DNA of 64,000 nt, taken from assembly GCF_003781945.1 (NCBI RefSeq), contig NZ_RJJW01000003.1:320260-384259 (forward strand), in the 5' to 3' direction. Made by a program: the position numbers and the translations under genes. The number at the start of each line of letters is the position of its first letter. The stretch's first letter is position 1. Positions 3,445 to 50,688 of this stretch are shown piece after piece. The notes beneath the pieces are model-generated. The model was not told the origin of the DNA. It worked only from the letters and a program-made list of their open reading frames with translations, and did no database searches. This stretch comes from Halorubrum sp. CSM-61. Its GTDB lineage: Archaea > Halobacteriota > Halobacteria > Halobacteriales > Haloferacaceae.

Positions 3445-4551
3445 ATGAGCGAGTCGCGGGAGTTCTGTCCCCGGTGTGGCGACGCCGTCCCGGAGCGGCG
3501 CGAGCCGCTTCCCGGCGACCCCCGAGGGCGGGACGCGCTGCTGTGTGACGACTGCTACTTCGAGGACTTCGAGCTGGTCGACGCGCCCGACCGGATCGAG
3601 GTGCTGGTCTGTTCCGGCTGCGGCGCGGTCCGCCGCGGCGAGTCGTGGCGGGACGTGGGCGCGCGCGACTACACCGACGTCGCCGTCGACGAGGTCGCGG
3701 AGGCGCTCGGGGTCCACGTCGACGCCGAAGACGTCGAGTGGGGCGTCGAGCCCGAGCAGGTCGACGAGAACAACGTCCGGATGCACTGCCGCTTCTCGGG
3801 GGTCGTCCGCGGGACGCTCCGCTCGGCGGAGGTGACGGTCCCCGTGAAGATCTCGCGGGGGACCTGCGACCGCTGCGGTCGGATCGCCGGCGGCTACTAC
3901 GCGGGGGTCGTACAGGTGCGCGCGGACGAGCGCGAGCTCACGCCCGCGGAGCGCGCCGAGGCGCTCGAGATCGCCGAGTCGTACGTCGCCGATCAGGAGG
4001 CCGACGGCGACCGCGAGGCGTTCATCACGGAGGTGAAAGAGACCGACGACGGACCGAACGTCAAGCTCTCGTCGAACCGGCTCGCGCAGAACGTCGCGAC
4101 GCGGATCACGGAGGCGCTCGGCGGGAGCTTCGAGTCGTACCCGACCCTCGTCACCGAGGACGGCGACGGCAACGAGGTGTACCGAGTGACGTTCGCGGTC
4201 CGCCTCCCGCGCTACGCCGAAGGCGAGATAATCGACCCCGAGGACGGCGACGGCCCCGTGCTCATCACGAGCGTTTCCGGCCGGCTCCGCGGCGTCCGAC
4301 TCGCCACGGGCGCGGAGTACACCTCCGAGTTCGAGGACGGGGCGGCCCCAGACGCGGTCCGGCTCGGCCGGCGGGACGACGCCGCGGAGACGACCGTGGT
4401 GACGGTGGAAGACGAGAACGCGATCCAGGTGCTCGACCCGGTCACCTACGAGGCGAAGACGGTCCCGAATCCCGACTTCGTCGACGGCGACGCCGGCTCC
4501 GTGCTCGCGTTCGAGCACGGCGGCGAGGTCCACCTCGTCCCCGAGGAGTAA
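3445..4551 (+). CDS. NMD3-family 60S/50S subunit biogenesis protein
   Basis: A 368-residue homologue of NMD3, the adaptor for the large ribosomal subunit in eukaryotes; archaeal members are presumed to act in 50S maturation or anti-association. The N-terminus carries several zinc-binding CxxC pairs: C8/C11, C34/C37 and C56/C59, plus a later CDRC pair near residue 137 followed by [15 protein letters not shown], a well-conserved stretch in this family. The eIF5A-like C-terminal region seen in NMD3 proteins is consistent with the last ~170 residues. It has an ATG start and stands alone, with the structured repeat element beginning 28 nt after its stop and running in the same direction. Confidence 0.93.
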
Positions 4552-4578: not shown

Positions 4579-5060
4579 ATATTTAAGTGAACTGTGAGCG
4601 ACGGTGACGATTGCTTATAAAGAACCGTGCGGTGGTGCGTGCCTCCGAGTGGCCGCCGAAGGCGGCCGCGAGGAGCACGCGCGAGGGAGTCGCTGGCGGC
4701 TGTCGCCGCCAGCGACGAGGCTGGGGAGGCATGAGGTGCTGTGCGGTTGCGGGGCGGGTGGGACTCAAAGGGGCAGCCGCGAGGACGAAGCACGGCGCAG
4801 TAAGCACTGCAAGGAGCGAGCGAAGCGAGCGACTGAAGCGCGCAGCAAGCCGCGCGAGTCCTCGCGGCTGGGGCTTTGGAGGCCTTCACCGTCGATCCGC
4901 AGTCACCGATTTATAGCCGAGCGGCTGGGGCTTTGGAGGCCTTCACCGTCGATCCGCAGTCACCGATTTATAGCCGAGCGGCTGGGGCTTTGGAGGCCTT
5001 CACCGCAGAGTCGATCACGGATACACAGCCGCCAGCAACACCCCTCGATCACGTATAAAC
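4579..5060 (+). repeat. Dispersed structured repeat element, copy 1 (possible ncRNA)
   Basis: A ~480-nt non-coding element that recurs, inverted, at 50262-50640. It starts with a TATA-like box (ATATTTAA, 4579-4586). Three hairpins follow. H1 lies at 4639-4678 (core GGCCGCC, loop GAA, GGCGGCC). H2 lies at 4689-4716 (12-bp perfect stem, loop TGTC). H3 has its 5' arm at 4766-4786 and 3' arm at 4858-4878: CAAAG/CTTTG, a 3x3 GGG/GGG internal loop, then 13 perfect base pairs. The 48 nt around H2 are identical in both copies. The distal half of H3 differs between copies but stays paired in each. No frame across it looks like a haloarchaeal protein. Its role is unknown. Confidence 0.85.
4864..5006 (+). 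repeat. 57-bp tandem repeat, about 2.5 units
   Basis: Two perfect 57-nt units (4864-4920 and 4921-4977) and a partial third (4978 to about 5006) lie in a row inside repeat copy 1. Each unit begins with the 3' arm of hairpin H3 (GCGGCTGGGGCTTTGG) and ends with a TATA-like TTTATAGCC. Copy 2 has only one unit, so this is a local duplication, likely by slippage or unequal recombination. It is not a CRISPR: there are no spacers. Confidence 0.95.
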
Positions 5061-5208
5061 GACCGATCAGCCAACGTGCAACCCGTACTCCCGCTATCGA
5101 TCAGAAAACATCTTTCAGCGGTACCCGCTTCGACCGCAAGCGGGCCTCAAGAGTGGGATCGAACCGGAGTCGAAAGGCCGAACTGCCGACCGTTCGCGTC
5201 GTTTCCGA

Positions 5209-5400
5209 TCAGTCGGCGTGGACCGAACGCTCCTCTCCGAGCGCGGCGGCGCGCTCCGACTCGGTCACGTCGATCCCGCGGCGCTCCAACTGATCGACGA
5301 ACTCCGGCTCGCTGAGGCCGGCCTGCGCGGCGGCCTGAGAGAGCGTCAGTGTTCGCGCCCCGTACAGCGTCAGCGCGGTCGCCAGCCCCTTCGTTGCCAT
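5209..5400 (-). CDS. Small UPF0175-like protein (possible antitoxin-type fold)
   Basis: A 63-residue acidic protein with the segment TLTLSQAAAQAGLSEPEFVDQLERRGI at residues 17-43, which resembles the helix-turn-helix of UPF0175-type proteins where it is often found in small antitoxin-like genes. A TATA box (TTTATG read on the plus strand, 5423-5428) lies 26 nt before the ATG at 5400, typical of a leaderless haloarchaeal mRNA, so the gene is probably real. No toxin partner is adjacent. Several haloarchaea carry single genes of this type, so a toxin-antitoxin role should not be assumed. Confidence 0.7.
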   Translation of the reverse strand: MATKGLATALTLYGARTLTLSQAAAQAGLSEPEFVDQLERRGIDVTESERAAALGEERSVHAD

Positions 5401-50170: not shown

Positions 50171-50261
50171 GTTCTCAAAAGCCACGGGCGCAAGCGTTCC
50201 GGTCAATATCGGTCCGGTGACGATTGATAGCGGGAGTAGGTATAGCGATATGGTGGAGTAG

Positions 50262-50640
50262 TTGTTTATAACTGATCGAGTAGTGTTGCTGGCGGCGGTT
50301 TATAAGTGATCGACGGTGCTGCGGTGAACAGCTTCAAAGCCCCAGCCGCTAAGGGCGACGCATGCTCGCTGCGCGCCTCACTCGGTCGCTCACGGTGTTC
50401 GCTCCCTCGTTGCGGTGCTTGCGTCCCCTGCGACGCCCTTAGCGGCTGCCCCTTTGAGTCCCACCCGCCCGCAACCGCACAGCGCCTCACGCCTCCCCAG
50501 CCTCGTCGCTGGCGGCGACAGCCGCCAGCGACTCCCTCGCACCGGCGGTTCGCGGCCGCCAATGGCGGCCGCGAACCGGGGCGCGCCACAGCCGTTCATT
50601 CATAAGCGGTCGTCCCCGTCGCTCACGGCTGTTTAAATAT
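50262..50640 (-). repeat. Dispersed structured repeat element, copy 2 (possible ncRNA)
   Basis: An inverted copy of the 4579-5060 element, reading leftward from 50640 and again starting with ATATTTAA. H1 is a 15-bp hairpin (arms 50564-50578 and 50546-50560, loop ATT). H2 (50505-50532) is identical to copy 1. H3 pairs 50434-50456 with 50335-50357: CAAAG/CTTTG, GGG/GGG loop, then 15 perfect pairs. The distal part of H3 is CTAAGGGCG here versus CGAGGAC in copy 1. It begins 48 nt past the stop of a co-directional gene (50689, minus) and has a single 57-nt unit where copy 1 has about 2.5. Confidence 0.85.
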
Positions 50641-50688
50641 CGAACTGTCACCACCGATCTGCAATACTCACTCCCGCACTCGATCAAG

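Follow-up and report, generated by a model that had tools for sequence, protein, structure and literature searches.

Fungal mitochondrial genomes carry interspersed hairpin elements that are small and of variable sequence, with their structure kept, and bacterial REP and BIME sequences are dispersed intergenic palindromic repeats that form hairpins. The haloarchaeal family described here is, like REP/BIME, intergenic, hairpin-forming and dispersed, but it is much longer and has several domains. It shares with the double-hairpin and repetitive hairpin-forming elements of fungal and sponge mitochondria (for sponges, see PMC2800124) an interspersed, hairpin-based organisation, a structure kept despite variable sequence and nested insertions. 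Its hairpins vary with preserved pairing, as in double-hairpin elements; it departs from their small, two-hairpin format, since it has a three-domain core of ~250 nt with single-stranded motifs that are invariant across the class, and it resides in archaeal chromosomes.

Three other systems are close in some respects. Haloarchaeal MITEs and other non-autonomous derivatives of insertion sequences are also short, non-coding and present in many copies, and a subset of the Halorubrum copies has terminal inverted repeats and flanking duplications of nearly 8 bp; the core of the family, however, is not itself bounded by terminal inverted repeats, hardly ever occurs on plasmids and keeps its structure from genus to genus. 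The omega-RNA of TnpB (IS200/IS605) is structured, comparable in length and associated with archaeal mobile DNA, but the family is not found beside tnpB; we rejected this identity, and the one tnpB locus searched with our model gave no match. Eukaryotic SINEs (dispersed, structured RNA-like and non-autonomous) are an analogy only, with RNA-mediated copying as a feature of SINEs.

Anatomy and spread of the family

An earlier note on the window (i.e., the whole 64-kb stretch of DNA that was analysed) had reported two non-coding, hairpin-rich copies of a repeat, one per strand. Inverted-repeat analysis, folding and a covariance model all recover both, with the anatomy that the note had described: three hairpins (H1, H2 and H3) within ~250 nt, separated by invariant purine-rich motifs (Table 1). 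H2 and its flanks, GCGAGGGA-GTCGCTGGCGGC-TGTC-GCCGCCAGCGAC-GAGGCTGGGGAGGC, are indeed identical in the two copies over about 50 nt. Both H3 hairpins have the CAAAG/CTTTG end, the GGG/GGG internal loop and the CAGCCG stem, and the next pairs are unlike but still pair (CGAGGAC/GTCCTCG in copy 1, CTAAGGGCG/CGCCCTTAG in copy 2). The two H1 sequences differ as well, and each folds. Copy 1 is flanked by an NMD3-family gene (3445-4551; NMD3-like by Pfam) and a convergent UPF0175-family gene (5209-5400). A protein gene or its remnant, which the note had set against its own proposal, was rejected, as three overlapping open reading frames have no Pfam match.

Table 1. Features of the two copies in window coordinates; fold z compares folding with dinucleotide shuffles, R1 is the covariance model and A1 an alignment of copies.
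Feature	Position	Strand	Basis
Copy 1 structured core (H1, H2, linker, H3)	4627..4879	+	R1 match, E 2e-51; fold z -4.2
Copy 1 H1, GTGCGTGCCTCC / GGAGCACGCGC, inner hairpin GGCCGCC-GAA-GGCGGCC	4635..4682	+	
Conserved single-stranded motif GCGAGGGA, H1-H2 junction	4681..4688	+	Near-invariant in A1
Copy 1 H2, 12-bp stem, TGTC loop	4689..4716	+	Inverted-repeat analysis, folding
Conserved motif GAGGCTGGGGAGG, 3' of H2	4717..4729	+	Near-invariant in A1
Conserved motif GGGACTCAAAGGGGC at H3 opening	4760..4774	+	Near-invariant in A1; class-wide form GGGACTSAAAGGGGC
Copy 1 H3, CAAAG/CTTTG, GGG/GGG loop, long stem, apical ladder of 2-bp steps with G-A mismatches	4766..4878	+	
Three tandem 57-nt units (H3 3' arm and tail), third diverged	4864..5034	+	
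Distal TATTTAA box, outer frame	4580..4586	+	Sequence; about one-third of copies have a similar offset
Proximal TTATAAA box	4615..4621	+	TTATAA box survey of 80 copies
Right outer inverted-repeat remnant TACTCCCGCTATCGATC	5086..5102	+	
Copy 2 structured core	50334..50594	-	R1 match C22:370593-370853 (-), E 4e-43; fold z -4.5
Copy 2 H3	50334..50457	-	
Copy 2 H2, same sequence as copy 1 H2	50505..50532	-	
Copy 2 H1, own sequence, perfect 16-bp inner stem	50546..50590	-	
Left inner inverted repeat GCGGGAGTGAGTATTGCAGATCGG, Halorubrum frame, copy 2	50654..50677 (C22:370913-370936)	-	
Right inner inverted repeat GATAGCGGGAGTAGGTATAGC, complement of copy 2 3' end	50226..50246	+	

The ~57-nt tandem unit recurs in variable copy number at three other loci (L013, L029 and L041). 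Four conserved plus-strand runs of at least three G between 4717 and 4878 could in principle form a G-quadruplex in high potassium.

Both window copies are real, but they greatly undercount the family. DNA searches of the source genome gave at least 64 matching pieces from the best 40 candidates, and the covariance model (R1; 38 copies, 246 positions) found at least 150 places, all but two of them full length, with a weakest E of 1e-21. A search for the inverted repeats of the Halorubrum frame (see below) added 11 sites that had no listed core; most hold one on inspection, one core being interrupted by a transposon and two sites being coreless, so that the true copy number exceeds 150. The density is roughly one copy per 25 kb.

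The note had proposed a covariance-model search of Halorubrum and other haloarchaea. In our searches, the family has matches in all 52 genomes of the genus and, in an even draw across Halobacteria, in 311 of 391 genomes and 74 of 86 genera. The motifs GCGAGGGA, YTGGGGAGG and GGTGGGACTGAAAGGGGC...GGGGCTTTC recur in the sequences from other genera, which identifies these as homologues; some consist of H3 alone and others of a head-to-head pair of H3 units. H3-only units outside Halorubrum are often arranged in this way, with ~30 bp between them (L181, L191, L206, L207 and L209, and matches in genomes G294 and G199). When 84,980 species genomes were scanned for the exact motif, the matches listed came from haloarchaea only, bar one chance match in Bacteroidales, and the 59 matches listed from a phylum-wide draw all fall inside the order. 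Of eight haloarchaea initially unmatched, six stayed so when 150 candidates were scored in each, and some of these genomes are near-complete. The family is thus widespread across haloarchaea, not universal.

Rfam 15 gave no match in the window, the best permissive scores staying below half of the gathering thresholds, and we found no description of the family in the open-access literature searched. The repeats form a real, class-wide family of folded elements undescribed in Rfam. Roughly one structured element per 25 kb, in most tested haloarchaeal genera, would amount to a large gap in archaeal genome annotation.

Selection on the folded strand

RNAalifold gave 57 pairs, 28 of them with changes on both sides, and 98.1% of cells are paired in 78 distinct copies from the source genome. 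Covariation reached 0.364 in these copies (0.147 when shuffled, at most 0.061 in slid controls), 0.362 in 60 sequences mostly from outside Halorubrum (0.101 shuffled) and 0.329 in 15 orthologues of a single site (0.127 shuffled); the alignments were fitted to the model and are hence biased toward its structure, against which the shuffled and slid controls guard. Folding energy does not by itself decide the strand, since one paralogue has similar z values on both (-7.2 plus, -6.4 minus). The asymmetry of the non-canonical pairs is more informative, because a G-U on one strand is an A-C on the other. In H1 and H3 of the source genome, G-U occupies 134 cells and A-C at most 18 (p about 4e-23, with cells that are not independent events), and in H3 of other genera the counts are 73 and 9; helix 4 of the model, which shows hardly any covariation, was excluded. 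The selected molecule is then the plus strand in single-stranded form, RNA and ssDNA being equivalent in this test.

The apex of H3 is built like a ladder, from two-base-pair steps that covary, with invariant tandem G-A mismatches in between. Columns 272-273 and 357-358 read GA in every copy that has letters there (one N aside), the pairs that flank them vary among GC, CG, AU and UA, and the GA columns are kept in most sequences from other genera that have these positions. Judged from these sequence comparisons, selection acts on the folding of the core's plus strand in single-stranded form. The note had proposed selection on structure from paired changes between its two copies; covariation, pair asymmetry and invariant mismatches now bear this out, but the two copies alone would not prove selection, because in much of the change whole hairpin modules are swapped, and hairpins are also sometimes inverted.

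Chromosomal setting and the likeliest reading

The family is restricted to chromosomes and nearly absent from plasmids. The exact motif has no match in 2.9 million viral contigs (IMG/VR), phage records gave none, and five plasmid records matched, at one place each; for comparison, a tnpB query alone matches at least 69 records of the plasmid set named Haloarcula, Halobacterium, Haladaptatus or Natrinema. In one relative (G036), the 3.22-Mb contig has all 112 matches; the 364-kb contig, for which 12.7 would be expected, has none. In the source genome, two contigs that we assume to be plasmids (C8 and C15, 313 kb together) have none of the 150 listed places, with 13.8 expected. Placement in G036 is Poisson-like and shows no replichore bias, and a lagging-strand insertion preference was rejected on that ground (permutation p 0.46). 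What sets the main replicon apart becomes a question in itself.

We placed 81 copies relative to genes called with a home-made codon-usage gene finder: 39 lie between convergent genes, 10 between divergent genes, and 12 and 14 in tandem pairs, with and against the upstream gene, the rest being unclassified. Convergent junctions are enriched (39 of 75 classified copies vs 11 of 58 adjacent pairs in the window, p 1e-4). We rejected a 3'-UTR element of the upstream gene, as orientation in tandem pairs is random. Copies are dispersed, and presence at a given site differs between species. The comparison of empty sites that the note had suggested found intact, partly deleted and empty orthologues; downstream of the NMD3-like gene, the site is intact, internally deleted, expanded or absent, depending on the relative.

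We slightly favour, on balance, a non-autonomous, chromosome-restricted interspersed element with a folded core of ~250 nt, which would act through RNA or ssDNA. The folded molecule would be recognised through its invariant motifs by a trans-acting haloarchaeal factor, and selection would maintain competence for this recognition. Ectopic gene conversion between copies would spread hairpin modules, and in Halorubrum roughly half of the copies would also have come to lie inside a unit with terminal inverted repeats, which in its fullest form has GGCTCTGTTGAAATCC-like ends and target duplications of nearly 8 bp. The note had offered either an ncRNA or a non-autonomous mobile element working through RNA or ssDNA hairpins. 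A repeat that folds as a single strand still appears the best reading of the sequences, and mobility is likeliest rather than demonstrated.

Near absence from plasmids and viruses, where classic mobile elements are common, counts against mobility, and long persistence at one orthologous site could also mean a host function. The copies might then be a host-beneficial ncRNA gene family or a chromosomal element (an insulator or terminator at convergent genes, or a nucleoid or RNP component), each of them individually dispensable. Chromosome restriction and the excess at convergent junctions fit this alternative too, but insertion tolerance predicts the same excess, and copies between divergent genes, the random tandem orientation, the many empty or partly deleted orthologous sites and the near-complete genomes that have no match all speak against it; we regard it as unlikely, though the most serious competitor to a dispersing element, which is still the likeliest reading. 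A bolder version of the latter, which we put forward as a rather doubtful speculation, is that a folded RNA made from more than 100 chromosomal loci per cell serves, across the class, an undescribed RNP system as its guide, primer or scaffold, and that this system also propagates the RNA genes inside the chromosome while leaving plasmids and viruses free of them.

Outer frame and hairpin turnover

Many Halorubrum copies have a TATTTAA box ~50 nt and a TTATAA box ~17 nt upstream of H1; the latter motif occurs within 80 nt in 57 of 80 copies, mostly at that distance. The TATA-led start noted in the window copies characterises only part of the family and belongs to an outer, Halorubrum-specific frame. 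In haloarchaea, the usual spacing from box to transcription start exceeds what a box 17 nt before H1 would allow for a whole H1. We rejected this box as a core promoter, as it is too near for a transcript with a complete H1.

An inverted repeat around GCGGGAGTNNGTATTGCAGATCGG is represented by one or both of its ends in 40 of the 81 Halorubrum copies, with none seen in the rest, and no frame was noticed in those copies from outside Halorubrum that we inspected. Copy 2 is a framed unit from about 50226 to 50680; copy 1 has no left terminal inverted repeat. Some frames extend to GGCTCTGTTGAAATCC-like ends. The octamers that flank core-bearing framed units match at 2-7 of 8 bases, the best at 7 (L103) and 6 (L184, L236 and L128), whereas in four cases coreless units with GGCTCTGTTGAAATCC-like ends have flanks matching at 7-8 of 8. 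Ends and near-8-bp duplications resemble IS6-type transposition. The three resident PF13610 genes, which encode IS6-like transposases, were rejected as the source of the frame because their ends differ, and among the PF13610 transposases examined in the source genome we found no mobilising protein or autonomous version.

The repeats could be plain MITEs of a known insertion sequence family, defined by the outer inverted repeats and duplications, with the hairpins as passive cargo. Framed copies with GGCTCTGTTGAAATCC-like ends and, in several, 5-7 of 8 matching flank bases would fit, as would the coreless units with the same ends; yet about half of the examined Halorubrum copies and the inspected copies from elsewhere have no frame, the core is conserved and covarying class-wide, and the IS6-type identity of the ends is tentative, resident PF13610 elements having no such ends. 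We consider this improbable.

Units that have GGCTCTGTTGAAATCC-like ends but no core, and whose flanks agree at 7-8 of 8 bases, include L033:39-637, L105:206-1508 and L290:800-1461, and that of L105 has an open reading frame resembling a lipoprotein gene. By sequence, such units look like passenger-gene transposons.

The hairpins themselves are exchanged as blocks. Among 80 copies, there are 45 types of H1 inner hairpin and 50 of H2, in 71 combinations. At one orthologous site, which lies downstream of a gene and is empty or partly deleted in other species, the 15 species with an intact core have 14 different H1 and 14 different H2, nearly all of which fold alone (with our cut of the modules, and a few extractions spoiled by nested insertions). 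As the gene beside this site is 84-95% identical, such turnover at a fixed site indicates block replacement, which is most simply explained by ectopic gene conversion. Consistent with this, identical cores occur at three loci in one set and at two in another, the identity stopping inside or near the frame. Orthologous sites provide a natural experiment in hairpin replacement with pairing kept. H2 apices in both orientations and the H3 interiors of L289 and L327, inverted relative to other inspected copies, indicate that inversion at the DNA level also happens.

One study proposes that RNA hairpins arise and persist through template switching, which according to it can also account for asymmetric pair frequencies (PMC8794818). 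A by-product of template switching and gene conversion, keeping hairpins with no selection for single-strand folding, would agree with the block replacement and with both kinds of inversion. The excess of G-U over A-C speaks against it, although less strongly in view of that study. It also predicts that mismatches be repaired into pairs; template switching can yield such changes, but it would not hold the GGG/GGG loop and the tandem mismatches of G with A invariant, and inverted H3 interiors are rare. We regard this reading as largely refuted and very improbable.

Nested double-hairpin-like inserts were seen by eye inside H1, the linker or H3, in both orientations (L030, L090, L103, L122, L124, L133, L165, L188, L199 and L209). 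Their recurrent forms include TGGTTC-hairpin-GTCATC-hairpin-GACGACA and GCAGC-hairpin-GGCAGC-hairpin-CGACA, and the inserts have the appearance of another double-hairpin element nested within the first.
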